From an uncultured Burkholderiales bacterium (GTDB lineage: Bacteria; Pseudomonadota; Gammaproteobacteria; Burkholderiales; Burkholderiaceae_C), in the NCBI GenBank assembly GCA_937864005.1, contig CALMIL010000112.1, positions 1 to 54,062 on the forward strand: a stretch of 54,062 bases of DNA, read 5' to 3'. The position numbers were made by a program, and so were the translations under genes. Below, piece after piece: positions 33,412 to 50,127 of this stretch. The stretch's first letter is position 1. Each line of letters opens with the position of its first letter. The notes under the pieces are model-generated. The model ran no database searches. It saw only the letters and a program-made list of their open reading frames with translations, and was not told the origin of the DNA.

Positions 33412-33474
33412 ACCTGCACCGCTGCGCGCCGAGCAGATCCGGCAGCGCCTTGCGTGCCGCGTAGAAGCCGCGAC

Positions 33475-34524
33475 GTGACGGCGACAACGATTCTCCTCAC
33501 AGGCGCGACCGGCTATATCGCGTCGCACACCTGGCTTGCGCTCGAGGTAGCGGGGCATCGCGTCGTCGGCGTCGACGACTTCTCGAACAGCTCGCCCGCC
33601 GTCCTCGAGCGCTTGCACCGCCTGGCCGGCCGCGCGCCGGATTTCGTACGCGCCGACGTCTGCGATGCCGCGGCGATGGAGCGGATCTTCGGGCAGCGCC
33701 GGATCGATGCCGTCGTCCACTTCGCCGCTTTCAAGGCGGTCGGCGAATCGGTTGCCAGGCCGCTCGCCTACTACGCGAACAACGTCGGCGCGTTGATGAC
33801 GGTCTGCGCGGCGATGCAGCGCCATGGCTGCAAGCGCATGGTGTTCAGCTCGAGCGCGACCGTCTACGGCAATCCGAAGGCGCTTCCGATACGCGAAGAC
33901 GCTCCTCTGGCCGCGAGCAACCCCTACGGCGCGACCAAGCTGATCGGCGAGTCGCTGCTGCGCGACATTGGCACCTCCGACGCGCAGTGGCAGACCGCCT
34001 GCCTGCGCTACTTCAATCCGGTCGGCGCGCACGAGAGCGGCCTGATCGGGGAAGACCCGCGCGGCACGCCGAACAACTTGATGCCCTTCGTCGCGCAGGT
34101 CGCGGTCGGCCGCCGCGAATGGCTGCAGGTCTTCGGCAACGACTACGACACCCCCGACGGCACCGGCGTGCGCGACTATATCCACGTCACCGACCTCGCC
34201 GAGGGCCATGTCGCCGCGCTGCGCTGGCTGCTCGCCAACGACGGCTCGCTCACCGTCAACCTCGGCACCGGCCACGGCTACAGCGTGCTCGACGTCGTGC
34301 GCGCCTTCGAGCGCGCGAGCGGGCGCGGCGTGCCCTACCGCTTCGCACCGCGCCGCCCCGGCGACGCGGGCGCCGTCTATGCCGACCCGGCGCTCGCCCG
34401 CGCCACCCTCGGCTGGCAGGCCGAGCGTACGCTCGATGCGATGTGCGAAGACAGCTGGCGCTGGCAGAGCATGAATCCGCAGGGTTTTGCGCCCGCCCAG
34501 CCGCTGAAGGAAGCCCTGCTGTGA
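33475..34524 (+). CDS. galE: UDP-glucose 4-epimerase
   Basis: A 349-residue extended SDR interconverting UDP-glucose and UDP-galactose. Catalytic SSSATVYG and the Tyr/Lys of NPYGATK are present, along with [12 protein letters not shown] and [14 protein letters not shown]. The NAD loop reads [11 protein letters not shown], with Ala in place of the third Gly of TGxxGxxG. The start is a GTG at 33475; another GTG at 33454 would add 7 basic residues. Its stop overlaps the gmd start (GTGA). Confidence 0.93.
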
Positions 34525-35660
34525 CGACCCCGAAGCACAAGGTCGCGCTGATCACCGGCGTCACCGGGCAGGACGGCGCCTACCTGTCCGAACTGCTGCT
34601 CGACAAGGGCTACGAGGTGCACGGCATCAAGCGCCGCGCGAGCCTGTTCAATACCGACCGCATCGACCACCTGTACCAGGACCCGCACGTCGAGCATCAG
34701 CGCTTCACGCTGCACTACGGCGATCTGACCGACAGCACGAACCTGATCCGCATCATCCAGCAGGTGCAGCCCGACGAGATCTACAACCTCGCCGCGATGA
34801 GCCACGTCGCGGTGAGTTTCGAGACGCCGGAGTACACGGCGAACGCCGACGCCGTCGGCACGCTGCGCCTGCTGGAAGCGATCCGCATCCTCGGCCTCGA
34901 GAAGAAGACGCGCTTTTATCAGGCCTCGACGAGCGAGCTCTACGGCCAGGTGCAGGAGACGCCGCAGAACGAGAAGACGCCGTTCTACCCGCGCAGCCCG
35001 TACGCCGTCGCCAAGATCTACGGCTACTGGATCACGGTCAACTACCGCGAGGCCTACGGCATCTATGCCTGCAACGGCATCCTCTTCAACCACGAAAGCC
35101 CGCTGCGCGGCGAGACCTTCGTCACGCGCAAGATCACGCGCGCGATCTCGCGCATCGCGCTCGGGCTGCAGGATTGCCTGTACCTGGGCAACCTGTCGGC
35201 GCTGCGCGACTGGGGCCATGCGCGCGACTACGTGCAGGTGCAGTGGCTGATGCTGCAGCAGGACACGCCCGAGGACTATGTGATCGCGACCGGCGTGCAG
35301 AACAGCGTGCGTCAGTTCGTCGAATTCGCGGCGCGCGAACTCGGCATCACGATCGCATTCAGCGGCGAAGGCAGAAACGAGATCGGCACCGTCGCGCGCA
35401 TCGATCCGGTCGGCGGCGAGATCAGGGCCAATTGCCAGGTCGGCGCGGTCGTCGTGCGCGTCGACCCGCGCTACTTCAGGCCGACCGAGGTCGAGACCCT
35501 GCTCGGCGATGCGAGCAAGGCCAGGGCGAAGCTTGGCTGGACGCCGGCGACGAGCTTTGCCGAGCTGGTGCGCGAGATGGTCGAGGCCGACTACGCCGCC
35601 GCACGCCGCGACAGCCTCGTCAAGCAGGCCGGCTTCAGGGCCTACGACTACAACGAGTGA
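34521..35660 (+). CDS. gmd: GDP-mannose 4,6-dehydratase
   Basis: A 379-residue dehydratase that makes GDP-4-keto-6-deoxymannose, first step to GDP-L-fucose. [16 protein letters not shown] is the NADP loop, [16 protein letters not shown], the STSELYGQ active site and [12 protein letters not shown] with the catalytic Tyr-x3-Lys are typical, as is [10 protein letters not shown]. The GTG start overlaps galE; the stop overlaps the fcl start. Works in series with fcl and manC. Confidence 0.96.
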
Positions 35661-36676
35661 TGCCGGCGATGAAGCACGACGCCCGCATCTACGTCGCCGG
35701 CCATCGCGGCCTCGCCGGCTCGGCGATCGTCCGCCGCCTGCAGTCTGCTGGCCACGCGAATCTGCTGCTGCGCACCCATGCCGAACTCGAGCTGACCGAC
35801 GCGCGCGCGGTGCGCGACTTCTTCGACGCCGAACGGCCGGAATATGTCTTCCTCGCCGCAGCGAAGGTCGGCGGCATCGTCGCCAACAATACCTATCCGG
35901 CCGAGTTCATCCGCGACAACCTCGCGATCCAGACCCACATCATCCACAGCGCGTGGCAGTGCTGCGTGAAGCGCCTGCTCTTCCTCGGCTCGAGCTGCAT
36001 CTACCCCAAGCTCGCAGCGCAGCCGCTGCGCGAGTCATCGCTGCTGACCGGCCCGCTCGAGCCGACGAACCGGCCCTATGCGCTCGCCAAGATCGCCGGC
36101 ATCGAGATGTGCTGGAGCTACAACCGCCAGTACGGCACGCGCTATCTGGCCGCGATGCCGACCAACCTGTACGGCCCGGGCGACAACTACCACCCGCAGA
36201 ACAGCCACGTCATCCCGGGGCTGCTGCGCAAGTTTCACGAGGCCAAGGCGAGCGGCGCCGACAAGGTCGTCGTCTGGGGCACGGGCACGGTGCGGCGCGA
36301 GTTCATGTTCAGCGACGATATGGCCGCCGCCTGCGTCTTCCTGATGAGCCTGCCCGATGCGCAGTTCGACGCCCTGCTCGGCAGCGACGAATCGGCGAGC
36401 GGCCGCTTCGAGCCGCCGCTCGTCAACGTCGGCGTCGGCACCGACCTGACGATCGCCGAGCTTGCGCTGCAGATCAAGCATGTCACCGGCTTTCAGGGCG
36501 AGATCGCCTTCGACGCCTCGAAACCCGACGGCACGCCGCGCAAGCTGCTCGACGTGAGCCTGCTCGCGCGCGCCGGCTGGCAGGCGACGACGCCGCTTGC
36601 CGACGGCCTGCGCATCGCCTACCGCGACTATCTCGCCGACCAGGACGCATTGCATACCGCCGACACCGCACCATGA
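35660..36676 (+). CDS. fcl: GDP-L-fucose synthase
   Basis: A 338-residue epimerase/reductase that turns GDP-4-keto-6-deoxymannose into GDP-L-fucose. [53 protein letters not shown] and [13 protein letters not shown] are diagnostic. Two in-frame ATGs (35660 and 35669) could start it; the first overlaps the gmd stop (TGATG). It also overlaps manC at its end (ATGA). Confidence 0.95.
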
Positions 36677-38136
36677 CCCCGTCGCCATCCCCCATCACCG
36701 TGCAGCCCGTCGTCATGGCCGGCGGCAGCGGCACCCGCCTGTGGCCGCTGTCGCGGGCCCAGCATCCGAAGCAGTTTCTCGTGCTGCAGGGCAACCGCAG
36801 CCTCTTTCAGCAGGCCGTATCGCGTCTTGCCGCGCTCGGCGGCGAAGATATCGCGGTCGCGCCGCCGTGCATCGTCGGCAACGAGGAGCATCGCTTCCTC
36901 GTGCTCGACCAACTGCGGGAGGTCACGCGCCAGAGCTGCAGCGTGCTGCTCGAGCCGATCGGCCGCAATACCGCGCCTGCCGTCACGCTCGCCGCGCTGC
37001 TCGCGGCCGCGTCGGGCGCCGATCCGGTGCTCGTCGTCACCCCCGCCGACCAGACCGTCACCGACGACGATGCCTTCACGCAGGCCCTGCAGGCCGCCGT
37101 TCGCAGCGCGGCCACGGGCGGCATCGTGATCCTCGGCATCCGGCCCGAGCGCCCCGAGACCGGCTTCGGCTATATCGAGGCCCAGGCCTCCGGCGCCGCG
37201 CCCCACGCCGTGCAGCGCTTCGTCGAAAAGCCCGACCTCGCGACGGCGCAGCGCTACCTGGCCCAGGGCGACTTCTACTGGAACAGCGGCATGTTCGTGA
37301 TGCGCGCGTCGGTCTGGCTCGCCGCGCTGGCCGCCTTTCGCCCCGATATCGCCGATGCGACGCGCGCCGCATGGCAGGCACGGACGGTCGATGCGCCGTT
37401 CGTGCGGCCCGGGCGCGCCGAGTTCGAAGCCATCCCCGCCGAATCGGTCGACTATGCGGTGATGGAGAAGTGCCCCGGCTCGGCCGCTTTCCCGATCCGG
37501 ATGATGCCGCTGGCCGCCGGCTGGAGCGACCTCGGCGCCTGGGACGGCGTCTGGCAGGTGAGCGACAAGGACGCCGACGGCAACGCGCAGCGCGGCGACG
37601 CGCTGTTCCGCGACAGCCACGACTCGCTGGTGCATGCCACGAACCGGCTCGTCGGCGTCGTCGGTCTCGACAACGTCGTCGTCGTCGAGACGTCGGACGC
37701 CGTGCTCGTCGCCGACCGCGAGCGCAGCCAGGATGTGAAGCACATCGTCGCCCGGCTCAATGCGGCCGGCCGCAGCGAACCGACCGTGCACCGCCAGGTG
37801 CATCGGCCCTGGGGCTGGTACGACAGCATCGACCACGGGCCGCGCTTTCAGGTCAAGCGCATCATGGTCAAGCCCGGCGCGTCGCTCAGCCTGCAAAAGC
37901 ACCATCACCGTGCCGAACACTGGATCGTCGTCAGCGGCACCGCCGAGGTGACGAACGGCGACCAGGTGATGCTGCTGACCGAGAACCAGAGCACCTATAT
38001 CCCGCTCGGCACCGTCCACCGGCTCGCGAACCCCGGCAAGCTGCCGCTCGAGATCATCGAAGTCCAGTCGGGCAGCTACCTCGGCGAGGACGATATCGTG
38101 CGCTTCGAGGACAACTACGGCCGCACGCCCGGATAG
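36673..38136 (+). CDS. manC: Mannose-1-phosphate guanylyltransferase / mannose-6-phosphate isomerase
   Basis: A 487-residue bifunctional type II enzyme supplying GDP-mannose. The nucleotidyltransferase domain starts with [16 protein letters not shown] and contains FVEKPD; the C-terminal cupin isomerase domain has [20 protein letters not shown]. It provides the substrate for gmd and fcl and is last in the operon. Only 7 bases separate it from the convergent cysQ stop. Confidence 0.95.
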
Positions 38137-38143
38137 GTCCCGC

Positions 38144-38917
38144 TCAGCCGCGCCCCGCCGCGACGAAATGCGGGTTGTCGAAGCCCGGCTTGCCGTAGGC
38201 GAGCGCCTCGCCGGTATCGATGCGACGCACGCTTCCGCCGGCAGCGGCCAGCACCGCGTGACCGGCGGCGATATCCCATTCCATCGTCCGGCCCAGGCGC
38301 GGGTACAGGTCGGCCTCGCCGGCCGCGACGAGGCACAGCTTGAGCGATGAACCGGCATTCGCGAGGCTCGCCACCTTGCGGCCGGCGAGGAAGGCATCGA
38401 GCGCCGCCGCGTCGCCGTGCGAACGGCTCGCCACCACCGTGAGCCCGGCATCGGGCACCGACCGGCAGGCGATCGTGCGCCGCCCGGCGGCATCCTCGAC
38501 GAAGGCGCCGCTGCCGCGGCAGCCGCCGAAGAGCCGGCCCAGTGCCGGCGCCAGCACGACGCCCAGCAGCGGCTGGCCGCGCTCGATCAACGCGATGTTC
38601 ACCGTGAACTCGCCGTTGCGGCTGATGAACTCCTTGGTGCCGTCCAGCGGATCGACGAGCCAGAAACGGCCGCCGAGGCTGGCGGGGTCGGGCACCCGCC
38701 CGGCGGCGACCGATTCTTCGGCGACGACCGGAATCTCCGGCGCGATGATGGCGAGCGCCGCGAGGATCAGCGCCTCGGCCTGCTCGTCGGCCTGCGTCAC
38801 CGGCGACGCGTCGTCCTTGCCGCGGACGGCGAAGTCGGTCGCGTAGACCTGCAGGATCACCTCGCCGGCACGGCGCGCGATCTTCGTGATCGATTCCAGC
38901 AATTCGGCGTCGGACAT
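38144..38917 (-). CDS. cysQ: 3'(2'),5'-bisphosphate nucleotidase CysQ
   Basis: A 257-residue Li+-sensitive inositol-monophosphatase-fold enzyme that removes the 3' phosphate of PAP (and PAPS). Metal motifs are clear: VVAEES, LVDPLDGTKEF and EWDIAAGHAVL. It is divergent from cysD/cysNC across a 104-bp gap and convergent with manC. Removing PAP is needed wherever PAPS is used by reductases or sulfotransferases. Confidence 0.95.
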   Translation of the reverse strand: MSDAELLESITKIARRAGEVILQVYATDFAVRGKDDASPVTQADEQAEALILAALAIIAPEIPVVAEESVAAGRVPDPASLGGRFWLVDPLDGTKEFISRNGEFTVNIALIERGQPLLGVVLAPALGRLFGGCRGSGAFVEDAAGRRTIACRSVPDAGLTVVASRSHGDAAALDAFLAGRKVASLANAGSSLKLCLVAAGEADLYPRLGRTMEWDIAAGHAVLAAAGGSVRRIDTGEALAYGKPGFDNPHFVAAGRG

Positions 38918-39021
38918 CAGTTTTCCCTCGCATCAGGACGGTCGGTGGCAGGCGTTTGCATGTATTGTCCAATAAAAGTTTAGTATCCTCGGCAACCTGA
39001 TTTCCTGCCTCCCGCCGTTCG
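38918..39021. promoter_or_regulatory. Divergent cysQ / cysD control region
   Basis: A short intergenic stretch, with an AT-rich patch (TGTATTGTCCAATAAAAG to TAGTAT, 38961–38986) that stands out in this GC-rich sequence. It must hold promoters in both directions. TTGCAT (38956) and TAGTAT (38981) are a possible rightward pair but with a long 19-bp spacer. Confidence 0.4.
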
Positions 39022-39891
39022 ATGCCCGAAGCGCCGCACCTGCCCCTGCAGCAGCTCAACGCCCGCCGCCAGCGTGCGGTGGAGTTGCGCCTTGCGGGGC
39101 AGACGCTGGAGCAGATTCGGCGCCAGACCGGCCTGAGCATCCCGACCGTGATCGGTGCCTACACCGCATTCTTGAACAAGGGCTGGTCCGGCATCGCCAC
39201 CCCGGCGCGCGGCCGCCGCGTCGGCCAGGGCCGCGGATTGACGCCGGACGAAGAAGCCGAAGTGCAGCGCTTCATGCTTGCCGCCCGGCCCGAGGAGGCC
39301 GGCCTGGCGACCGGACTGTGGACCGCCGATGCGGTGCGCGAATTCACGCAATCCGCATTCGGGCATGCCCCGCAGGGCCGCGCGCTGACGCGGGTGATGA
39401 CGCGCGCCGGAATCGACCTCCTGCCGATGGCAGAACTGGCGCGCGAACACGCCGCACTCGCGCAGTGGCGCGAAGCCCGGCTGCCGCACCTCGCCCGCGA
39501 CGCCCGCAAGCGCGGCGCGAGCCTGGCGTGGTGCGGCCAGATCAGCCTGCCGGGCCCGAGCGCGACCCAGCGCCTGCTGGTGGCGCAGACCCTGCGCGAC
39601 AGCACCGCCTGGCTGCCTGTGGGCGATGCCTACAGCGTCGGCACCTATGCCGATTTCCTCGAGCGCCTGCTGGCCGCCTGGCCGGGCGCGCATCACATCC
39701 TGCTGCACGGAATCGATATCCGGGCCGCGGGGCTCACCGGCTGGCTGCAAGAGCATCCCGAGATCACCGTCAGCGCCTGCCCGGCCGGCCCGACAGCGCG
39801 CCTGCAGCGCAATCCGACGCCCGCCGTGGGCGGCGCCGCGCCGCCTTCGAAAGCAACGATTCACCGATCGGCGAGCGCCGATTCACTGCCC
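39022..39891 (+). other. IS630-transposase-like, DDE-less domain in frame with cysD
   Basis: The first 290 codons of the cysD reading frame. Residues about 8–55 form a homeodomain-like helix-turn-helix ([20 protein letters not shown]). Residues about 95–135 form a second winged helix ([17 protein letters not shown]). The rest follows the IS630 DDE_3 layout, but the acidic residues are gone: the first D position lies in LAWCGQISL, the second (normally DNxxxH) reads LLHGIDIR, and the final NPxE position reads QRNPTPA. It looks like a domesticated, catalytically dead transposase kept for DNA binding. No terminal inverted repeats were found around it. Confidence 0.6.
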
Positions 39892-40791
39892 ATGAAACTC
39901 ACCCATCTGCAGCAACTGGAAGCCGAGAGCATCCACATCATGCGCGAGGTCGTCGCCGAGGCCGACAACCCGGTGATGCTCTATTCGATCGGCAAGGACA
40001 GCGCGACCATGCTGCACCTCGCGCGCAAGGCCTTCTATCCCTCACCGCCGCCGTTTCCGCTGCTGCACGTCGATACGACCTGGAAATTCCGCGACATGTA
40101 TGCGCTGCGCGAGCGCATGGCTGCGGAGTCGGGGATGAAGCTGCTCGTCCACCAGAACCCGGAGGCCGCCGCGCTCGGCATCAACCCCTTCGATCACGGC
40201 TCGCAGATCCACACCGACATGTGGAAGACGCAGGGCCTGAAGCAGGCGCTCGACCAGTACGGCTTCGATGTCGCCTTCGGCGGTGCGCGGCGCGACGAGG
40301 AAAAGTCGCGCGCCAAGGAGCGCATCTTCTCGTTTCGAAGCCACCAGCACCGCTGGGACGCGAAGAACCAGCGCCCCGAGCTCTGGCACCTGTACAACGC
40401 GCGCAAGCACAAGGGCGAGTCGATCCGCGTCTTTCCGCTCTCGAACTGGACCGAGCTCGACGTCTGGCAGTACATCGAGGCCGAGAAGATTCCGATCGTG
40501 CCGCTGTATTTCGCCGCCGAACGGCCGGTCGTCGAGCGCGACGGCGCGCTCATCATGGTCGACGACGAGCGCATGCCGCTCGAGGCCGGCGAACTGCCGG
40601 TGATGCGCAAGGTGCGCTTTCGCACCCTCGGCTGCTACCCGCTGACCGGCGCGATCGAAAGCGACGCCGATACGCTCGCCGCCGTCATCCAGGAGATGCT
40701 GCACTCGCGCAGCAGCGAGCGCCAGGGCCGCATGATCGACCACGACGCCGCCGCCTCGATGGAGAAGAAGAAGCAGGAAGGGTATTTCTGA
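39022..40791 (+). CDS. cysD: Sulfate adenylyltransferase subunit 2 with in-frame N-terminal extension
   Basis: One uninterrupted frame of 589 codons. The CysD part begins at the internal ATG 39892 ([20 protein letters not shown], 299 residues, normal length) and has the PP-loop SIGKDS (residues 322–327 of the long frame), [16 protein letters not shown] and [15 protein letters not shown]. With CysN it makes adenylyl sulfate from ATP and sulfate. Upstream are 290 codons of transposase-like sequence without a stop. There is no Shine–Dalgarno before 39892, only a small hairpin, so the product may be a fusion, or CysD may start internally. If only conventional CysD is made, the gene is 39892–40791. 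Confidence 0.85.
39867..39882 (+). promoter_or_regulatory. Hairpin just upstream of the internal cysD ATG
   Basis: ATCGGCG and CGCCGAT form a 7-bp stem with a 2-base spacer, ending 9 bases before the ATG at 39892, where a ribosome site would be expected. It could hinder or guide internal initiation. Confidence 0.35.
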
Positions 40792-42650
40792 TGAGCGCGC
40801 AAGAGAACAAGGGTCTGCTCAGGTTCATCACCTGCGGCAGCGTCGACGACGGCAAGAGCACGCTCATCGGGCGCATGCTGTACGAGTCGAAGATGCTGTT
40901 CGACGACCAGCTCGCCGCGGTCGAGGCCGACAGCCGCAAATGGGGCACGCAGGGCGACGCGATCGACTTCGCGCTGCTCGTCGACGGCCTGGCCGCCGAA
41001 CGCGAGCAAGGCATCACGATCGACGTCGCCTACCGGCTGTTCGCCACCGAGCGGCGCAAATTCATCGTCGCCGACACGCCGGGCCACGAGCAGTACACGC
41101 GCAACATGATCACCGGCGCCTCCACCGCCGACCTCGCCGTGATCCTGATCGACGCCCGCAAGGGCGTGCTCACGCAGACGCGCCGGCACAGCTACCTGGC
41201 GCACCTGATCGGCATCCGCAAGGTGGTGCTCGCGATCAACAAGCTCGACCTCGTCGACTACTCGGAGGAGGTCTTTCGCACCATCGAGGGCGAATACCGC
41301 GATTTCGCGGACCAGATCGGGCTCGCGGACATCGTGCCGATCCCGCTCTCCGCGCTGCGCGGCGACAACATCCTGACGAAGAGCGCGCACACCCCCTGGT
41401 ACCACGGGCCGACGCTGATGGCCTACCTCGAGACGGTCGAGGTCGACGATCTGCGCCAGCAGGCCGGCGCACTGCGCCTGCCGGTGCAGTGGGTGAACCG
41501 CCCGAACCACGACTTCCGCGGCTTTTGCGGCACCGTTGCCGGCGGCAGCGTCAAGCCCGGCGACCGCATCCGCATCCAGCCTTCGGGGCGCGAGAGCACG
41601 GTGGCGCGCATCGTCACCGCCGACGGCGACCTGCCGCTCGCCGTGGCCGGCCAGTCGATCACGCTGACGCTCGCCGACGAGATCGACATCTCGCGCGGCG
41701 ACATGATCAGCGACGCCGAGAAGCCCGCCGAAGTGGCCGACCAGTTCGAGGCGACGCTGGTGTGGATGGGCGAGGAGCCGATGCTGCCGGGCCGCGCCTA
41801 CGTCATGAAGATCGGCACCCGCAGCGTGAGCGCGACCATCACCGAGCCCAAGTACAAGGTGAACGTCAATACGCTGCAGCACCTCGCCGCCAAGACGCTC
41901 GACCTGAACGAGATCGGCGTGTGCAACCTGTCGCTCGACCAGCTCGTCGCCTTCGATCCCTACGACGCGAACCGCGAGACCGGCGGCTTCATCCTGATCG
42001 ACCGCCTGACCAACAACACCGTCGGCGCCGGCATGCTGCACTTCGCGCTGCGCCGCGCCCACAACATCCACCTGCAGTACGTCGATATCGACAAGGCCGC
42101 GCGCGCCACCCTGAACGGCCAGCGGCCGGCGCTGATCTGGATGACCGGGCTGTCGGGATCGGGCAAATCGACGATCGCCAACCTGGTCGAGAAGAAGCTC
42201 TACGCGATGGGCCGGCGCAGCTACCTGCTCGACGGCGACAACGTGCGCCACGGCCTGAACCGCGACCTCGGCTTCACCGACGCCGACCGCGTCGAAAACG
42301 TGCGCCGCGTCGCCGAAGTCGGGCGCCTGATGGTCGATGCCGGGCTGATCGTGATCGCCGCATTCATCTCGCCGTTTCGCGCCGAGCGCGCCATGGCGCG
42401 CGCCCTGCTCGCCGAAGGCGAATTCATCGAGGTCCACGTCGACACCCCGCTCGAAGTCGCCGAATCGCGCGACGTGAAGGGCCTGTACAAGAAGGCCCGG
42501 CGCGGCGAACTGCGCAACTTCACCGGCATCGATTCGCCCTACGAACCCCCCGAGAATCCCGAACTGCGCGTGCACGCCGCCGCCTGCAGCGCCGAGGAGG
42601 CGGCCGAGCAGGTGATCGGCGCGCTGCGCGGGCTGGGGCTGATTTCGTAG
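40791..42650 (+). CDS. cysNC: Sulfate adenylyltransferase subunit 1 / adenylylsulfate kinase fusion
   Basis: A 619-residue bifunctional protein of the NodQ/CysNC type. The N-terminal GTPase CysN has [18 protein letters not shown] and NKLD. The C-terminal APS kinase CysC starts near residue 445 with GLSGSGKST and holds [14 protein letters not shown]. With CysD it converts sulfate to PAPS. The ATG shares its first base with the last base of the cysD stop. A CysC domain is not required by organisms that reduce APS directly, so PAPS may be meant for sulfotransferases in the surrounding polysaccharide locus. Confidence 0.96.
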
Positions 42651-42692: not shown

Positions 42693-43718
42693 ATGAAGGT
42701 CTGGTTCGATCTATCCAACTCGCCCCACATCAATCTGTTCGCGCAGATGATCCGCGAGCTGGAGGCGGATGGGCACGAGGTCATCATCACCTGCCGCCCG
42801 CTGGCCAATACGATCGACCTGCTCGATCTGCACGGCTTCCGGTACGAAGTCGTGGGCGAGCACTACGGCGCCAACTTCTATCGAAAGCTCTTCGGCTACC
42901 CGATCCGCGTGATGCAACTGCGCGCCTACCTCGCCCCCAAGCGCATCGACGTCGCCATCTCGCAAAGCTCGTTTCATTCCCCGGTCGTGGCGCGGCTCCT
43001 GGGCGTGCGATCGATCTACATGAACGACAACGAGCATGCGCTGGGCAACGTGCCGTCGTTCCTGAGCGCCAGCAAGATCATGGTGCCCGAGTTCCTCTCG
43101 CTGGCGAACCTGAAGCGGCAGATGGCCAACCCCGCGAAGGTCGTTCGCTACCCCGGCGTGAAGGAGGGCATCTACCTCTGGGGGCTGCAGAAGCGTCTCG
43201 ACCAACGCGGCGTTCGGGCCAAGCCGTCCGGCCGGCCGGCGGTCTACGTGCGGCCCGAGCCCTGGACGGCGCAGTACTACAAGGGCGGCAAGGACTTCCT
43301 CGACGATGTGCTGCTCGGCGTCAAGGATCACGTCGACGTCACGTTGCTGCCGCGAGGCAAGGCGCAAGGCGAACACTACCGGGCGCCGAGGTTCGCCCGA
43401 ATCCGGATCGTCGATACGGCCCTAGACATCGCCGATATCGCGCCCGATTGCGACCTCTTCGTCGGCGCCGGTGGAACCATGACGCGCGAAATGGCGGTGC
43501 TGGGCGTGCCCACCATCTCCGTTTATCAAGACGCGTTGCTGGATGTCGACAGGTATCTGCTGGAGCTTGGCGCGTTCTCCCACCAGCCGAAATTGACGGC
43601 TGCCGCACTGCTGGACTTTCTCGGCGCCGCCGATCGCCGGCCCGCCAACAGCCTGCTGCTGAACAAGGGCGAACAGGCCTATGCCCAAATCAAGCATGCG
43701 ATACTCGCCGCCGATTGA
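42693..43718 (+). CDS. DUF354 family protein, glycosyltransferase-B-like
   Basis: A 341-residue protein of the DUF354 family: MKVWFDLSNSPHINLFAQMI at the start, ISQSSFHSPVVARLLG and, near the C-terminus, LFVGAGGTMTREMAVLGVP, which resembles the nucleotide-sugar binding half of GT-B enzymes. Relatives occur in archaeal and bacterial polysaccharide clusters; no activity is firmly known to me. It starts 42 bases after cysNC and is followed by an oxidoreductase and an aldo-keto-reductase-like protein, probably a functional trio. Confidence 0.75.
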   Translation: MKVWFDLSNSPHINLFAQMIRELEADGHEVIITCRPLANTIDLLDLHGFRYEVVGEHYGANFYRKLFGYPIRVMQLRAYLAPKRIDVAISQSSFHSPVVARLLGVRSIYMNDNEHALGNVPSFLSASKIMVPEFLSLANLKRQMANPAKVVRYPGVKEGIYLWGLQKRLDQRGVRAKPSGRPAVYVRPEPWTAQYYKGGKDFLDDVLLGVKDHVDVTLLPRGKAQGEHYRAPRFARIRIVDTALDIADIAPDCDLFVGAGGTMTREMAVLGVPTISVYQDALLDVDRYLLELGAFSHQPKLTAAALLDFLGAADRRPANSLLLNKGEQAYAQIKHAILAAD

Positions 43719-43724
43719 TGCCGG

Positions 43725-43748
43725 TTGTTCGGCAACAGTGCCGAGCAA
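43725..43748 (+). terminator. 10-bp stem-loop between DUF354 and oxidoreductase genes
   Basis: TTGTTCGGCA and TGCCGAGCAA pair over 10 bp (one G·U) around ACAG, followed by TT. It ends just before the ribosome site (CAGGGGG) of the next gene. It could attenuate readthrough or affect translation rather than fully terminate. Confidence 0.4.
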
Positions 43749-43761
43749 TTCAGGGGGTTGA

Positions 43762-44850
43762 GTGGTCAGAGTTGCAATGGTCGGGCTCGGCAAGATGGGC
43801 CTGTCCCACCTTGCCATCGTGCGCGCGCATCCGCAGGTCGACTTGATCGCCGGTTGCGACAGTTCGAGCTACCTGACGGACGTGCTGTCCAGGCATGCCG
43901 GGCTCGAGTGCTACGCGGATTTCGACCGCATGCTGGCCAACGAGCAGTTGGACGCGGTCGTGGTTTCCACCCCCTCCAAGATGCATGCGTCGATGGTGCA
44001 CAAGGCGCTGGACAAGGGCTTGCACGTATTCTGCGAGAAGCCTTTCGTGCTCGACGTGAATGACGGTGAACGATTGGTTGCGTTGGCCGACAGCAAGAAC
44101 CTGGTGACGCAGGTCGGCTACCACTATCGGTTCGTCGGCGCCTTCCGGGAGGCCGCGCGGGTCGTCAAGTCCGGTGCACTGGGCACGATCCATCATGTGC
44201 GTGCCGAGGCCTACGGCCCCGTCGTGCTGCGGCCCAAGGGCGGCACCTGGCGCCTGGCGAAGGACGAGGGCGGCGGCGCCCTCTACGACTACGCCTGTCA
44301 CGCGATCGACCTCGTGAATTTCATCGCCGGGACCCCCGCATCGGTGGGCGGCGTGGTGCGCCACGGCGTCTTCTCGCGCGACGTCGAGGATGAAGTCTAT
44401 TGCTCGCTCTACTACGCCAACGGCGCCAGCGGCCAGTTGTGCGTGAACTGGAGCGACGAGAGCTTTCGCAAGATGAGCACCAAGATCTCGGTCTGGGGCA
44501 CGAACGGACGCTTGACTGCAGATCGACAGGAGTGCCAGACCTATCTGCGTGAACCGACGCCGGCCCTGCCTGAGTTGAAGACCGGCTGGAACGTCCGCTA
44601 CACCACCGATCTGACCGAGCCGGTCTGGTACTACCTGCGCGGCGAAGAGTACTCGGCACAGGTCGACTACTTCGTCAAGAGCATTGAAGCCAGGCGCACG
44701 CAGGGCGAGAACAGCTTTCGCTCGGCGCTCGAAGCGGATCGCATCGTTTCGATGATCGTCGCGCAGGGGCTGTCCGGGGCGCCGAGTGCAGGCGCGGTTG
44801 CGGCGCCCGCCTCCGCGCCGGCAGGCTTCTGGAAGCGACTCTTCGGTTGA
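43762..44850 (+). CDS. Gfo/Idh/MocA family oxidoreductase
   Basis: A 362-residue NAD(P)-dependent sugar oxidoreductase. Rossmann loop VGLGKMGLSHL, the family hallmark CEKPFVLD with the catalytic Lys, and the catalytic-region motif ALYDYACHAIDLVNF (His likely catalytic). The start is GTG, with AGGGGG before it. The last ~20 residues are Ala/Pro-rich. Sits between DUF354 and the AKR-like gene, so it likely oxidises or reduces a nucleotide sugar or glycan during polymer tailoring; the substrate is unknown. Confidence 0.85.
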   Translation: MVRVAMVGLGKMGLSHLAIVRAHPQVDLIAGCDSSSYLTDVLSRHAGLECYADFDRMLANEQLDAVVVSTPSKMHASMVHKALDKGLHVFCEKPFVLDVNDGERLVALADSKNLVTQVGYHYRFVGAFREAARVVKSGALGTIHHVRAEAYGPVVLRPKGGTWRLAKDEGGGALYDYACHAIDLVNFIAGTPASVGGVVRHGVFSRDVEDEVYCSLYYANGASGQLCVNWSDESFRKMSTKISVWGTNGRLTADRQECQTYLREPTPALPELKTGWNVRYTTDLTEPVWYYLRGEEYSAQVDYFVKSIEARRTQGENSFRSALEADRIVSMIVAQGLSGAPSAGAVAAPASAPAGFWKRLFG

Positions 44851-44884
44851 ACCACACCTGCGCACGCAGGGCAATCAGCAAGCT

Positions 44885-45769
44885 ATGGACCGTGTCCTGT
44901 TCGGTGACAACCAGTTCTTCGGCGTCAACCACATGTCCGAAGAGAAGGCGCGCGCGCAGCAGATGCGGTTTCAGGACACGCAAGCCATCATCGATGTGCT
45001 GGATGCCGCCTACCAGGAAGGCATCCGCACCTTCATGTGCACGACGCACGATCGCGTGGCAGAGGTGTGCGACTACTTCCGCGCCAATCGCGACAAGTAT
45101 CCGGACTACGAGTTCTTCCCCTGCATGCCCTACGCGCACAAGTACGCGAATGCCGTGACCGAGTACGGCATGATCGACGCACTGCGCAAGTTCCTGCCCG
45201 ACGAAGGCGCGGTCGGCGCCATGTTGAAAGGCGGGCTGGCGCTTGCCAACAAGGACGTCGCGGCCATCATGCAGTTGCTGATCGACGCCGAGATGAAGAT
45301 GTTTCACGGGCTGCGCACACCCGTCATCTTCATGCAGAACGTCATCACCGATCTGCTGCTGGGCGTCGGCATGAAGGGCTGCCTTCGCGTCTTCCATGAC
45401 CACGTGCGCGAAAAGTATCAGGCCGAGCCCGGCTTCATCACGATGAATACGCCAGTCCTGCTCGACGTACTGGACGAGTTGGGCATCGACAACCCGATCG
45501 TCTGCTCCAACATCAACAAGATCGGCTTTCGCATGTGCGGCGGCATCGAGCTGTACGAGAAGACGCTTGCCGAGCGGCGCTTCCGTCCGGTCGCCATGTC
45601 GGTGCTCGCCTCCGGCGCGATCACGCCGCGCGAGGCCATCTCGTACGTCTGCGGCCTGCCCAAGGTGGAATCGATCGTCTTCGGCGCATCGAGCCGCGGA
45701 AATATCCGCCAGACGAAGAACTTGATCGACGAGTTCTGGCCCGTCAGCACCGGCGCCGGCGCCGGCTGA
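44885..45769 (+). CDS. Aldo-keto-reductase-like TIM-barrel protein, unknown function
   Basis: A 294-residue soluble protein. The start (RVLFGDNQFFGVNHMSEEKA) and the end (VFGASSRGNIRQTKNLIDEF) recall the first strand and last helix of aldo-keto reductases, with ADAAYQEG-like and GIRTFMCTTHDR segments between. The classical AKR catalytic Tyr/Lys/His cannot be placed with confidence. Proteins of this type are usually listed as hypothetical next to polysaccharide genes. It follows the Gfo/Idh gene by 34 bases and is probably co-transcribed. Confidence 0.6.
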   Translation: MDRVLFGDNQFFGVNHMSEEKARAQQMRFQDTQAIIDVLDAAYQEGIRTFMCTTHDRVAEVCDYFRANRDKYPDYEFFPCMPYAHKYANAVTEYGMIDALRKFLPDEGAVGAMLKGGLALANKDVAAIMQLLIDAEMKMFHGLRTPVIFMQNVITDLLLGVGMKGCLRVFHDHVREKYQAEPGFITMNTPVLLDVLDELGIDNPIVCSNINKIGFRMCGGIELYEKTLAERRFRPVAMSVLASGAITPREAISYVCGLPKVESIVFGASSRGNIRQTKNLIDEFWPVSTGAGAG

Positions 45770-45803
45770 TCGGTACGCGCGCGGGCGCATTGCGCCGCCG
45801 GGC

Positions 45804-45826
45804 GCCGGCAATCGATGCATGCCGGC
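45804..45826. terminator. Hairpin between convergent AKR-like and hipA genes
   Basis: GCCGGCA and TGCCGGC form a 7-bp stem around a 9-base loop directly before the hipA stop on the other strand. Position between convergent genes suggests a two-way terminator; no T-run. Confidence 0.4.
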
Positions 45827-47089
45827 TCACGCGCCGGGTTGCCTTTCGAAGAAGAAGCAGTCGGGAAGGATGGCCGGGGCGATGTGGTCGATATCTTCGA
45901 CCGAGACACCGCAGGCGCGGAAGTTGTCGCGCCAATGCCGGATGACATCGACGAGCCGGTCGATCTGCCCCCGCGCCTCTTCGGCCGACAAGCCGAAGCG
46001 CCCCGCCTGCGACAGCAGGTTGTAGATGCTCGCGCTGCGCCCGTAGTCGCCGACGGTCAAGGCCAGGTCGCGCCGCTCCAGGCTGACCACAGGTACGGGC
46101 ACGAGGTCATAGGCCGGAGACAGCCGCCATCCCTTATGCCTGCGCAGCAGCGCATGGTTTCGCGGATGGTCATCGTTGTTGGTCACGGCGGCATTGAAGA
46201 CCATCCGCCCGAATAGTTCGGCGCAGTCGGCTGCAGGCTTGTCGGACCAGCGGCGCAGGTTGTCGGCCAGCAACGGGTATGACCAGCGTTCCCGGTCCAG
46301 GTGGCTGTCGCCGCAGTCGAGCACGGTCAAGCCGCTGACGAGCCCGAATCGCAGGTAGCCCTTGTCGGTGTAGTCGCGATCGAACCGCTGCAGCATCAGC
46401 ACGTCGCCCTCGCCAACCGACTCCAGCCGGGCCCGTGCGACATTCAGACCGCATCTGCGTGCCAGGTCGAGCGTCGCGAACTCGACGCGCTGCAGATTGA
46501 AGCGGTCATCTCTTGCCGGAAACTTGCCGAGCCAGAGATTCTGCGCATCCTCGATCGTGGCCTTTGGCCGCGCGCCCCCCATGCTGGTGCCGGGATCAAG
46601 CTGTTCGAGCAGATGGGCGGCCACCGGGCGCCCCGCGTCGATCGCCTGTGTGACCGCGATCAGTTCCGCCAACTGATGCGTCCGGTTGTACTGGCGCCTG
46701 GGCGCGGGCGGTTCGGCCTTCATGCCGAAGCTCAGATAGCCTGCCCCGTCTTGCGGTCCGTGCAGCAAATAGTCGATTTCTTCCAGGTCGGCCGCACTGC
46801 GCTCGAGCCTGTGCTCGATCACGCGCCGCCCCCAGGCATCGGGGCCGGCGTCTCGAACGGCGCCGGGAATCCCCTTCAGCCGGGTGAACTCGAAGACTTC
46901 CTTGGCAAGAGGCAGCTGGAACGGATCGAGTGCAACTGCCTCTTGGCGCTGAAGGTAGCGATCGCCGTAGCGAAACCGCCCTATTTGCCTGCCATCGGGC
47001 AGCGTCTGCACCCTGAGCAGCGCTGCCGGCACCGTTTCCAACGTGCCGGGCAGCTGAATGTAGACATAGGCTTCGCGCTCAAAAGTCAT
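45827..47089 (-). CDS. hipA: HipA-family serine/threonine kinase toxin
   Basis: A 420-residue HipA-like kinase. The regulatory/G-loop Ser is probably Ser169 in GTSMGGARPKA, with Lys176 nearby as a nucleotide-site residue. The catalytic loop is NNDDHPRNH and the DFG-like metal site is AYDLV. HipA kinases phosphorylate glutamyl-tRNA synthetase or other targets and slow growth when not held by HipB. The ATG lies inside the end of hipB (11-bp overlap), so the module is translated together. It interrupts the polysaccharide region on the opposite strand. Confidence 0.9.
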   Translation of the reverse strand: MTFEREAYVYIQLPGTLETVPAALLRVQTLPDGRQIGRFRYGDRYLQRQEAVALDPFQLPLAKEVFEFTRLKGIPGAVRDAGPDAWGRRVIEHRLERSAADLEEIDYLLHGPQDGAGYLSFGMKAEPPAPRRQYNRTHQLAELIAVTQAIDAGRPVAAHLLEQLDPGTSMGGARPKATIEDAQNLWLGKFPARDDRFNLQRVEFATLDLARRCGLNVARARLESVGEGDVLMLQRFDRDYTDKGYLRFGLVSGLTVLDCGDSHLDRERWSYPLLADNLRRWSDKPAADCAELFGRMVFNAAVTNNDDHPRNHALLRRHKGWRLSPAYDLVPVPVVSLERRDLALTVGDYGRSASIYNLLSQAGRFGLSAEEARGQIDRLVDVIRHWRDNFRACGVSVEDIDHIAPAILPDCFFFERQPGA

Positions 47090-47411
47090 AGTCGTCGCTC
47101 GCCTTGCGGGCCTTTCCCGCTCGCGTCGGGCGGCGCGATGCTTCGAGCGCCTTGCCGTGGAGATCGCCATCGGGATCCGCGACAGCGTCCAAGGACTTGT
47201 CCAGGCCGAGCGCCCACAGTACCGTGAAGCACACACCGACCGCCGTACCCGGCCTGCCCAGCTCGAGCGCCGTGAGGGTGTTTCGGTTGATGCCCGCCTT
47301 GCCGGCGAGATCAGCGGCCGACCAACCGCGCCGAATCCTCGCCACCCTGATGCGCCGGCCCAACTCGGCAACCCGCTCGTTCGCTTGCAGAGGAATCATG
47401 AACTTGCTCAT
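47079..47411 (-). CDS. hipB: HipB-like antitoxin, XRE-family repressor
   Basis: About 110 residues with an XRE helix-turn-helix (RRIRVARIRRGWSAADLAGK, then AGINRNTLTALELGRPG) and an unstructured basic-acidic tail. It should bind HipA and repress its own operon. Possible starts are GTG 47429 and ATGs at 47423, 47411 and 47399; I prefer 47411, because one operator repeat covers the more distant ones. No start has a strong ribosome site. Confidence 0.88.
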   Translation of the reverse strand: MSKFMIPLQANERVAELGRRIRVARIRRGWSAADLAGKAGINRNTLTALELGRPGTAVGVCFTVLWALGLDKSLDAVADPDGDLHGKALEASRRPTRAGKARKASDDYDF

Positions 47412-47412
47412 T

Positions 47413-47457
47413 ATGCTAGGCATTATCACGAATCAACGATCGAAATACTAGGCATTG
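47413..47457. promoter_or_regulatory. Two direct repeats upstream of hipBA, likely HipB operators
   Basis: ATGCTAGGCATTA (47413–47425) and ATACTAGGCATTG (47445–47457) share 11 of 13 bases and are 32 bp apart, about three helical turns, so two HipB dimers could sit on the same DNA face. Confidence 0.6.
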
Positions 47458-47787
47458 AACGCATGAAGCACAAGCCGTTCGCCCGGGAAGAAGAGCGCCA
47501 GACCTAAAACCTCGAGACGGCTTGCACGCCGTTACCACTGCCGTCGGCGCCTTACAAGGCGGGGGTTCATCGAAACGTTTCGGCGACGAAAGCTAGGCAG
47601 ACTACCGCCCGGCCCCGCAGACCGCTTCGTCTGCCGCCCGGCAGCAGCGAGTGCCCAGGTGATGCATCACGCATCGCGTAGCGCCGACACGGTCGGCTCG
47701 CTCACCCAACGCACGGAAGCCCGCTTCATCCATGGCCGCATCGCGCGGCCATGGATGACATCGTCGTCCTGCTTTCCCTGGCCGCAT
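47458..47787. other. Non-coding stretch between hipB and the lyase gene
   Basis: About 330 bp without a convincing gene. It holds a 12-bp palindrome CGAAACGTTTCG (47571–47582), a hairpin with arms GCAGAC and GTCTGC (47617–47634) and the larger hairpin at 47726–47758. A frame open from 47659 lacks coding character before 47788. Confidence 0.5.
47726..47758 (+). promoter_or_regulatory. Perfect 14-bp hairpin in the lyase leader
   Basis: TCATCCATGGCCGC and GCGGCCATGGATGA form a perfect 14-bp stem with a 5-base loop (ATCGC), ending 29 bases before the lyase ATG. No T-run follows, so it may be a leader regulatory structure, a protein-binding palindrome or a transcription stop for the preceding region. 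Confidence 0.55.
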
Positions 47788-50127
47788 ATGATCACCACTA
47801 CCCCGCTGCATCCCCGCTTCATGTCGCTGAGCGTGCTTTCGCTGTGCATCTCGCTGGCTGCATGCGGCGGATCGGATACGCCCGAGGATATTGCCGCAGC
47901 CTCCACCTCGGCGCATTCTCTGGAATCACCCGCAGCGCTGCGCGACACCCGCTCCCCGGCAACGGCGACCGGCGCCGGCGCTTCGCTCGCCGGGCCCGCG
48001 CTTTCGACGGCAAGCGTCGGATCGAACCTGCAGAGGCTGATCGCGGCAGCAACCACACCGGCGTCCGCTGCGGCCGGCGCGGGAACCGGGCTCGTCAGGG
48101 CGCCCATCCTCATCGGCTCCGACGAAACCTCGCGCACGCTTCCGGCCTCGCGCGACACGTCGCCGACGCGCGCGCCGGTATTCACTCCAAAACAGGAACC
48201 CACGCCGCCGCGTTCCCTTTGGACGCTTCCCGAGAGTGTCACGGTCGAGGGGGACGTATCCGGCACGACCTTCACGGCGTCAACGGCAGACGCGCTTGCG
48301 AAGCGGAGCGATATCGTCTTGAGCACCAGCCGCATTCCGAAGGAGGATTGGGCGGCCGCGAAGTCGAAGTTCGCCTCCGTGCCGTCCTGGACGAGTTGGG
48401 TGGGAAGGCGCAAGGCGCTTGTAGACGATTGGATTGGCGCATCACGCGATCGTGCGGACCTGATTGGCGGCTACGGGCACGATTACAACGACCCGAAAAC
48501 CGGCATTCCGCTTGCTTGGACTCCCGAGTCAGCCGAACCCCCGGACGGAGCGACCGATACCGAGATTCGCTTCAAGCAAGCCTGGGTATATTTCATGCGC
48601 GCCTACAACCTGACCCGGACCGGTGAGGCCGCGAGGATCTATGCCCTCACCGGCGATGTGAAGTACGCGGAGTGGGCAGCGCGCCAACTCGACTTCTATG
48701 CCACCAACTACAACCTGTGGCCGCTGCGCACGGAGAACGGGCGCGGGCGCATGTACCGCCACGGGCTCGACGAGGCCACCGGCGTCTGGGACTTGCTGGA
48801 CGCCGCCCGCCTTCTCGAAGTCTATGCCGGGGCAGCCCGTGTCAGTTCATGGCGCACGGGCCTATTCCAACCTATGGCAGAGAACCTCAAGACGGTAACG
48901 TCGCCCCTGACGAACATCGGCCTCTGGCACGCCTCGGGCATCGCAGGCATTGCCATGCGCCTGCACGATGGCGCGTTGCTCGACTATGCGCTCAACAACC
49001 CGATCGGCATCCGAGCTACGTTGGCCGCCGCGATGACTTCGGACTACCTCTGGGATGAAGGCAGCTTCGGCTACAACGACTATGTGATCTGGGCACTCAG
49101 CAACCTGCAGGTCGCCGCCGGCGTGGAGGGCTATGCGTCATCCGTCGCTTCCGAGCGCACGCCGCTTTACCGCCTCCTCCTGAGCCCGCTCGACTATCGT
49201 TTCGACGACGGCTCGCTGCCAACGCCCGGCGACTCGGCACCGTACAACGCATTCACTTCGCGATCCTTCGTCCGCGCTTACCGTTCCATCCCGACCTGGT
49301 GGGGCGTGCAGGCAGCCAACGCCTCGCAGTCGTGGGAAGCCCTGATGGATGCCCCGCCCGCCACGCCACCGGCGCCCACATTACCACCGGTGACGACCCG
49401 CAACTTTCCCGGCAACCGTATGGCCGTGTTGCGCTCCGGCGCGTGGCAGGCATTCGTTCACTATGGACAGTCGCGCGCGAATCATTGGCAGGAAGAGGCA
49501 CTGACCTACGAGCTTCATTTCGGAACGGTCCGCCTCAGCAGCGATCCCGGCACGGTGAACTACAGTTCGCCGTACCACAACGACTATTTCCGAAAGGGCC
49601 CTGCGCAAAACGTGCCGCTCATCGATGGAATGGGTCAGGAGAAGTGGAGCCCTGGCGAGATTGACGTATTCGACCCCGCCGAAGCCCGTCTCGTCGTCAA
49701 GCATCCGTCATACAGGTCAGGCGTCGCCGTCGTGCGCGGATTTAGAACGACGACGCAAGGCTTCGTCGAACGCACGTCGTTAAGCACAGCAGACAAAAGC
49801 GTAAGGCGACTCGGGATCGCCTACCATAGCAACTGCAGTATTCGGCCGCTGAACGGACTCATCTCACTTGCGGTGGCGCCTTCGGTTCCGGCGACGCCAG
49901 CCACGGCTTACTGGACGGAACTGTCCGCCTACTCCGCCGCCGCCAAATGGTCCATAGAGATCGATTGCGGTGGCGCCAAGTTCTCTTACATGGTCGTGGG
50001 GACGCCCAATCAAAGGGTTTATCTTGGAAAGGAGCCCACTACACCGCTACCAGGTGTACGTCCTGTGCTCTACTATGAAGTTACTTCGGACGCAGCAGTC
50101 TTTGAATCAACAATTGATGCCAGATAA
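47788..50127 (+). CDS. Polysaccharide lyase lipoprotein (alginate lyase / heparinase II-III type)
   Basis: A 779-residue lipoprotein. The lipobox LAAC lies at about residue 26 if the ATG is 47788; ATG 47821 would leave a very short signal. After a ~150-residue Ala/Thr/Ser/Pro-rich linker comes an alpha-helical toroid (about 200–500: MYRHGLDEATGVWDLLDAAR, GLWHASGIAGIAMR), then a beta-sheet domain with VHYGQSRANHWQEEALTYEL and SDPGTVNYSSPYHNDYFRKG, as in the Heparinase_II_III domain. It probably cleaves uronic-acid-containing polymer, perhaps the one made by this locus. GC content falls toward its 3' end. Confidence 0.8.
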   Translation: MITTTPLHPRFMSLSVLSLCISLAACGGSDTPEDIAAASTSAHSLESPAALRDTRSPATATGAGASLAGPALSTASVGSNLQRLIAAATTPASAAAGAGTGLVRAPILIGSDETSRTLPASRDTSPTRAPVFTPKQEPTPPRSLWTLPESVTVEGDVSGTTFTASTADALAKRSDIVLSTSRIPKEDWAAAKSKFASVPSWTSWVGRRKALVDDWIGASRDRADLIGGYGHDYNDPKTGIPLAWTPESAEPPDGATDTEIRFKQAWVYFMRAYNLTRTGEAARIYALTGDVKYAEWAARQLDFYATNYNLWPLRTENGRGRMYRHGLDEATGVWDLLDAARLLEVYAGAARVSSWRTGLFQPMAENLKTVTSPLTNIGLWHASGIAGIAMRLHDGALLDYALNNPIGIRATLAAAMTSDYLWDEGSFGYNDYVIWALSNLQVAAGVEGYASSVASERTPLYRLLLSPLDYRFDDGSLPTPGDSAPYNAFTSRSFVRAYRSIPTWWGVQAANASQSWEALMDAPPATPPAPTLPPVTTRNFPGNRMAVLRSGAWQAFVHYGQSRANHWQEEALTYELHFGTVRLSSDPGTVNYSSPYHNDYFRKGPAQNVPLIDGMGQEKWSPGEIDVFDPAEARLVVKHPSYRSGVAVVRGFRTTTQGFVERTSLSTADKSVRRLGIAYHSNCSIRPLNGLISLAVAPSVPATPATAYWTELSAYSAAAKWSIEIDCGGAKFSYMVVGTPNQRVYLGKEPTTPLPGVRPVLYYEVTSDAAVFESTIDAR

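Follow-up and report, generated by a model that had tools for sequence, protein, structure and literature searches.

A candidate autorepressor composed of an IS630-type transposase remnant and the ATP sulfurylase subunit CysD

A 54,062-nucleotide stretch of an uncultured Burkholderiales bacterium (the window) contains an open frame in which a transposase-like protein runs without interruption into CysD, the small subunit of ATP sulfurylase. The locus raises the question of what a transposon-type DNA-binding protein does on a sulfate-activation enzyme, and whether the two belong together at all. The first-pass annotation had described one 589-codon frame joining an IS630-like part to a CysD of normal length, and we confirmed this: the translated frame (589 aa, no internal stop) consists of a 290-residue IS630-type transposase remnant (hereafter the N-part), followed by a complete CysD of 299 residues that begins at M291 (ATG 39892) (Table 1). 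The CysD half matches the NCBIfam models PRK12563 (544.5 bits, cut-off 413) and TIGR02039 (501 bits, cut-off 396.6) over residues 2–299 of 299, and its GKDS motif and a 15-letter stretch are invariant across the 22 fusion rows of alignment A1 (P0001–P0004 left out); judged by its profiles, it is a full-length member of the ATP sulfurylase small subunit family. The cysD stop shares one base with the start of cysNC (TGATG). A gene of the cysNC family lies beside the fusion in 34 of 40 clustered loci (the window included; many contigs are short), and a cysQ-like family member occurs within the retrieved flanks of 16 of the other 39 loci. The window's own genome (G000, 3.9 Mb, 95% complete) contains a single CysD by search with the 589-aa protein, and PF01507 adds one match, which by its span is a CysH-like PAPS reductase; for these two reasons the fusion gene probably supplies the ATP sulfurylase, if the cell makes an enzyme of this type. 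Genes of sugar-nucleotide or polysaccharide type flank the cys genes of the window (33454–38133 and 42693–50124), encoding a GDP-mannose dehydratase, an epimerase, ManC-type, DUF354 and heparinase-like proteins and an oxidoreductase, and they fit a sulfated polysaccharide as a possible product. We also observed a protein with a HipA-like C-terminal domain (45830–47371, minus strand) in the window, and a neighbor of about 575 aa that recurs in 13 loci (e.g., L033, 7339–9072).

Table 1. Positions of the fusion gene, its parts, its neighbors and the predicted upstream site in the window.
Feature	Residues	Position	Strand	Basis or remark
cysQ-like inositol-phosphatase family gene, divergent, upstream of the fusion		38144..38917	-	Family match
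TATTGTCC		38963..38970	+	By-eye comparison with related IS630 TATTGATCC
Predicted operator CAATAAAAGTTTAGTA		38970..38985	+	36 nt ahead of the start codon; conserved motif
Fusion gene, IS630-derived N-part and CysD		39022..40791	+	589 codons, open frame
First helix-turn-helix with TGLSxPT recognition region	13–57	39058..39192	+	Model helices 9–24, 29–36, 40–57
Second (winged) helix-turn-helix	74–133	39241..39420	+	Weak HTH_33 match (E 0.036); IS630 model reaches residue 133; model helices
RNase H-like core without catalytic acids and without last helix	167–256	39520..39789	+	Model strands and helices 168–252; alignment A4; integrase-core matches
Pro/Ala/Ser-rich linker, low model confidence	257–290	39790..39891	+	Length varies among relatives
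CysD, ATP sulfurylase small subunit, 299 aa and stop		39892..40791	+	Family profiles
cysNC (GTPase subunit and APS kinase)		40791..42650	+	GTP_EFTU and APS_kinase domains

Residues 15–133 match the NCBIfam model transpos_IS630 (NF033545) with an E-value of 6.7e-11 and 42.2 bits, below the curated cut-off of 100 for the full-length family, and the N-terminal paired-type DNA-binding domain is present with two helix-turn-helix (HTH) units, both of which had been reported as kept. The first-pass annotation had further stated that each catalytic acid is replaced. Alignment to related IS630 transposases upholds this for the first two, as HWGDE reads AWCGQ in the N-part (D to G, E to Q; the first acid position is G172) and LILDN reads LLHGI (D to H; the second is H229), but the assignment of the third to QRNPTP is uncertain, since that C-terminal region is absent altogether; the DDE residues are not intact. 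The acids have been lost differently among the fusions: L027 and L073 retain the first pair and L027 also the second D, the third is found in none, and L050 and L051 show partial decay of the RNase H part.

A structure model of the whole protein was set aside because its CysD half was poor (mean pLDDT 66.2), and a model of the N-part (pLDDT 89.6) was used. The structural comparison that had been proposed for residues 1–290 was borne out in part: the model matched TnsB (E 1.4e-4, with a TM-score of just 0.23) and cores of retroviral integrases, the catalytic domain of Sleeping Beauty followed further down (E 1.4e-2, rank 45 in the Foldseek list), and the first 135 residues of the model matched paired (Pax) domains. 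The VIA lists held integrase cores, CysD-type folds and paired domains, with no IS630 or Tc1 entry among the 50 rows listed. A sequence search of the PDB with the N-part gave just two weak matches, seemingly unrelated. In a tree of the N-part, which carries a warning of long branches meeting, the 49 fusions described below fall together on one side of a branch (100/100), apart from 12 IS630 transposases. Four further long frames that carry the domain were rejected as CysD fusions. L151 is another protein; L149, L152 and L153 are IS630-like proteins that stand alone, with no CysD and with broken catalytic motifs (WAHTE; WLDES, lacking the third acid; WVHGA), and they may form a second domesticated set of IS630 proteins, one without the fusion.

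How widely the fusion occurs was assessed in several collections, and the search for the same fusion and for separate versions, which the first-pass annotation had suggested, found both. Merging loci whose sequence is the same in the 600 bases around the start of CysD, and setting aside the unfused L012 and L013, left 49 distinct loci with the same order and frame, in Beta- and Gammaproteobacteria by record title; L119 carries the domain as a separate gene beside cysD. The hosts, again by record title, include isolates of Azohydromonas, Scleromatobacter, Denitromonas, Marinobacterium, Allopusillimonas, Achromobacter, Caenimonas and Polynucleobacter, plus MAGs. A scan of named contigs gave 39 loci; in 37 the frame continues into CysD, and in the remaining two the contig ends before that point. 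L015–L053 were found via the patterns RLLVAQTLR or TGLS[AIV]PT, so the constancy of that stretch partly reflects how the loci were found. A database search that used residues 1–290 for scoring and the length of the whole protein as a size criterion gave 21 full-length fusions (573–638 aa, N-part identity 39–90%); one of them, P0005, is named simply CysD, a name that hides the extra 290 residues and their predicted regulatory role. Within a family sample, the N-domain search and inspected loci place the fusion in at least 21 of 399 genomes, with one more cut by a contig end. In a class-wide sample, 4 of 369 genomes match over both parts (own included) and 22 match the N-profile; six of the 22 have the domain beside cysD, namely four full fusions (own included), one fusion with the first HTH (HTH1) only and one separate gene. 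In the same-genus sister G001, CysD begins at its own start without the 290-residue N-part, as ordinary CysD does.

Fused and unfused CysD do not form two clades. On a CysD tree that comprised 47 of the 49 fusions (without the incomplete L026 and L035) together with five additional fusions and 30 singles, 10 changes of the label are required, at least five of them forced; these counts are somewhat too high, given that L119 and L123 were labeled single though domain-bearing. A single N-part clade with a scattered CysD label suggests repeated loss or transfer. No paper on such an IS630-type/CysD fusion was found in the literature covered, which mostly excludes subscription journals, and IS630 is absent from the main text of PMC8987985 in the part that was available.

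We then looked for signs of selection on the join and on the domains. The last 60 codons before CysD contain 0 in-frame stops across the 49 loci, against 55 in the +1 frame, 38 in the +2 frame and an expectation of 59 ± 8 from mononucleotide shuffles; over the same loci, 38 different spacings separate the first HTH from CysD. These counts indicate that the open join between the domain and CysD is selected. The earlier statement that no stop separates the two parts holds for all 49 loci found via the N-part, which run into CysD, and fails in L119, which has a stop and two genes. Median dN/dS over 15 close pairs, some sharing a member, was 0.08 for HTH1, 0.43 for the linker and 0.06 for CysD, and it was 0.25 for the RNase H part (14 pairs). 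Between the window and its nearest relative, the values were 0.35 for HTH1 (few changes), 0.20 for HTH2, 0.34 for the RNase H part, 1.54 for the linker and 0.06 for CysD, and outside the linker dN/dS was at most 0.55 in every computable pair. HTH1, which has the lowest mean entropy among the N-part regions (residues 13–57, 1.22 bits), is by these measures under purifying selection.

An open join need not mean that the long protein is the main product. The internal ATG could be the main start, with free CysD doing the chemistry and the full fusion serving as a minor regulator or merely being tolerated, a reading that we consider rather unlikely. It would account for the ATG that 41 of 49 loci have no more than six codons ahead of the CysD core, for the SD-like pairing of the internal ATGs (mean −4.4 kcal/mol, against −3.4 kcal/mol for 753 other in-frame ATGs; Mann–Whitney p 5e-4, kinship ignored), and for the candidate starts in L027, L071 and L073 that follow a strong SD-like stretch; in L119, the two parts are separate genes anyway. 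In the window, however, M291 has no Shine–Dalgarno sequence (anti-SD duplex −2.2 kcal/mol, against a mean of −2.7 for the 16 other in-frame ATGs of the frame), L018, L042, L049, L051 and L052 have no ATG or GTG within eight codons, the sole other PF01507 match in the genome of L052 is weak (E 1.2e-4), and a linker open in all 49 loci is not required of a tolerated by-product. The first-pass annotation had noted the missing Shine–Dalgarno sequence, which is correct for the window and not for many relatives, where an SD-like stretch precedes the internal ATG. Its proposal that a hairpin takes the place of the ribosome site was rejected: the hairpin is present (about 39867–39882), but the stability of the stretch equals that of shuffles (z −0.24) and gives no evidence for such a role. 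The number of products, one or two, may differ among species.

Upstream of the fused loci lies a common AT-rich motif of about 16 bp (19.2 bits), and the sole match to AWTAAANSTTTARTA with at most one mismatch in the window's own genome is at 38971–38985. When each locus was scored with a matrix built from the other groups (leave-one-group-out, 20 groups at 50% N-part identity; the training sites had been chosen with a matrix that had seen all loci, a slight leak into this test), the upstream site was the best of its locus in 44 of 49 loci and in 26 of 31 loci longer than 9 kb, with a mean of 17.2 bits. The exceptions were L016, L049 and L051 (rank 2), L052 (rank 22) and L027 (rank 82, no site). 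Against dinucleotide shuffles of the same 250 nt, the site reached P ≤ 0.05 in 42 of the 49 fused loci and 0.01 in 31; L016, L027, L049, L051, L052, L065 and L071 missed 0.05. None of 28 distinct domain-less cysD loci (31 rows minus L013/L109, which are one gene, and the domain-bearing L119 and L123) reached P ≤ 0.05 (lowest P 0.07, mean 5.2 bits), and the domain-less sister G001 scored −2.6 bits. In seven domain-bearing loci outside the matrix (3.9–5.5 kb), the site ranked first throughout, with 25.1 bits in L154 and L119, 19.5 in L155, 19.4 in L115 and 17.4 in L123 (P 0.002–0.006); L116 and L117 scored 7.0 bits each, which is not significant (P 0.11 and 0.12). Of five independent fused/unfused pairs on the CysD tree, too few for significance and with L119 and L123 labeled domain-less, the site went with the fusion in three on average and against it in none. 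With a conserved site upstream of domain-bearing and not of domain-less genes, the earlier guess that sulfate activation feeds back directly on transcription gains support.

Several features qualify this signal. The site ends a median of 24 nt before the first in-frame ATG or GTG, which is a predicted start only; the distance is at most 20 nt in 20 of the 46 loci in which one was found, and 2–7 nt in several. In L030, L031 and L119, the top-scoring site coincides with the probable coding start or falls slightly within it; the bases of the site also code for a shared IKHLS peptide, and protein conservation may add to the signal there. A palindrome with compensatory arm changes was rejected: in tests run without L027 and L051, the arms did not co-vary beyond chance (fixed axis 0.66 vs 0.66; free axis 6.02 vs 5.79 ± 0.19 in chimeras, with about 12% of the null as high), and dimer symmetry is therefore unsupported. 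A scan of window positions 38850–39950 for sigma-70 promoter and terminator consensus sequences found none. In L049, a site elsewhere in the locus (24.6 bits) outscores the one before the fusion (18.2 bits) and may be a second target. L116 (G587) and L117 (G790), with their weak upstream sites, are fusions with an altered recognition helix (AGVSAPTVTAAF), and both genomes have a second CysD match, partial in G790.

Related IS630 elements have a similar sequence at their left ends. Among matches no farther than 70 nt from the transposase start, the best one falls between −36 and −45 in every one of 12 such elements, which is a consistent pattern and not 12 independent tests, as the elements are interrelated; this match ranks first in its locus in 9 of the 12 and beats its own shuffles at 0.05 in only 8. 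The left inverted repeat of L079 (TATTGATCCGGCACTAAACATTTGAACT), the operator of L065 (ACTAAATCATTTAGTG) and the window (TATTGTCCAATAAAAGTTTAGTA) are laid out similarly, and the left-end-like motif of the window spans 38963–38985, the left side alone having been compared. That TATTGTCC is a fossil of the outer left inverted repeat is suggestive only.

Two variants separate the domain from the join. In L119/L158 (G792), a class-level relative, the domain is a gene of its own, with about 268 open codons and a TAG stop a short way ahead of cysD, which lies in another frame; two operator-like sites of 25.1 and 22.0 bits stand upstream, about 40 nt apart. L123/L167 (G686) has only the first HTH and the GR-rich connector in frame with CysD, together with the upstream site scored above. 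The separate gene of L119 shows, at the level of gene layout, that the regulator can exist without a tie to CysD, and the database proteins P0002 and P0004, which are known from the protein only, resemble the N-part and end before CysD, may be further separate-gene forms; a covalent tie between the domain and CysD is not universal. L119 and L123 strengthen the case for a regulator to roughly the degree that they make a tie to CysD less necessary. L128 and L130 (G432 and G490) have about 200 extra open codons ahead of CysD, with a weak match to the fusion profile from position 159–165 and none to the N-domain profile; this is a different N-terminal extension or nothing.

Taken together, these results lead us to propose, with a probability of roughly 0.6, that the IS630-type part fused to CysD, its catalytic acids replaced, binds the upstream site of about 16 bp and likely represses its own cysD-cysNC operon. 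An IS630 element would have inserted upstream of cysD in an ancestor; its transposase would have been shortened at its end, with the paired DNA-binding domain retained, and would in most lineages have come to run into cysD, and the inner part of the left inverted repeat would persist as the binding site. The right arm, which is TTTAAT-like, likely doubles as a −10 element, and given how closely the site precedes the first ATG or GTG, transcription probably starts in or next to it. The N-part bound there would block RNA polymerase, which would amount to autorepression. As a weaker step, CysD could act as the sensor: engaged with CysNC or substrates, it would draw the N-part off the DNA, and with enzyme in excess the N-part would bind and shut off the operon, much as PutA represses without proline. 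A flexible linker would allow CysD-CysNC assembly while the N-part holds DNA, so that enzyme saturation could be read out, and free CysD may also arise where the internal ATG retains a ribosome site. The fuller account, in which a captured insertion sequence gave its left inverted repeat as operator and promoter and its transposase as the DNA-binding half, and the chimera senses sulfate activation directly, is more tentative, a little short of an even chance.

The sign of the regulation could be the opposite. It is unlikely, but conceivable, that the domain activates its own operon or bridges two sites to set its output. By eye, a second TTAA-rich inverted repeat lies upstream in L033, L035, L041, L042 and L046, tens of bases from the first site, L119 has its two strong sites, and the low-confidence linker of the model would permit bridging; against this, the site stands so close to the predicted start in many loci that there is no room for a promoter downstream of it. 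Still less probable is a reading in which the motif is a mere conserved promoter, a −10 box and its flanks, and the N-part no longer binds DNA and scaffolds CysD-CysNC assembly. Such a promoter would explain the −10-like right arm near the start and the arms that do not co-vary, but not why the motif beats every other position, other promoters included, in most of the longer loci, is missing from all 28 domain-less cysD loci, and has a counterpart at a constant spacing in IS630 relatives, within their left ends; moreover, HTH1 is the most constrained part of the N-domain and the one kept in L123, and the sites of L119 are present although its domain is not joined to CysD. Finally, that the frame is an artefact of gene prediction or assembly (the window comes from a 281-contig assembly) or a recent insertion reading into cysD by chance is refuted by the isolate records that carry the fusion and by the 49 loci open in frame, along with a 91% identical fusion in a second same-genus assembly and the dN/dS values outside the linker.

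On the reading that we favor, an autorepressing fusion, an enzyme would control its own gene by means of transposon parts and would have persisted long enough to be found in Beta- and Gammaproteobacteria; it would also be a single-site regulator of activated sulfate, standing in the window beside sugar-nucleotide genes. How enzymes acquire a DNA-binding half is seldom visible; here, the protein and its predicted site are traceable to one transposon family, and several stages are at hand, from related transposases and domain-less sisters to the partly decayed L027 and L073, the separate gene of L119 and the single HTH of L123. The window and 48 other loci place an enzyme and a DNA-binding-type domain in one polypeptide, as read from their open frames. 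By function, such a fusion would be a trigger enzyme; by descent, it is IS630-derived and no longer an IS630 transposase.

Among known systems, NodP-NodQ is a sulfate activation system comparable to CysD-CysNC, and in this arrangement CysD stands beside a CysN-APS-kinase fusion, as in the window, where the pair lies within a sugar-nucleotide cluster. With IS630 and Tc1-mariner transposases (relatives among L004–L083), the fusion shares two HTH units, a GR-rich connector, an RNase H-like core and an operator-like left-end sequence; unlike them, it has replaced acids, lacks the last part, occurs in a single copy in its own genome and has CysD attached. The plant proteins FHY3/FAR1 stem from another transposase family and are not known to be enzyme fusions. 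They are host transcription factors derived from a transposase, as the available part of the source describes them (PMC6000157), and are eukaryotic, unlike the bacterial CysD fusion. TldR, a TnpB-like nuclease-dead repressor, is likewise a regulator from a transposon-encoded protein; according to the passages at hand, it is RNA-guided, whereas the fusion here is an HTH transposase joined to a metabolic enzyme (PMC13418256). The closest functional parallel is PutA among the trigger enzymes, likewise an enzyme with a DNA-binding domain, which binds only beside its own gene and acts as a repressor in the absence of its substrate; the PutA passages available mention no transposase origin, and in our case the enzyme is CysD, with an IS630 remnant as its DNA-binding part, and the regulation is predicted (PMC8249747). 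The trigger-enzyme type is thus already known, and the new part is the transposon-derived pair of protein and operator.
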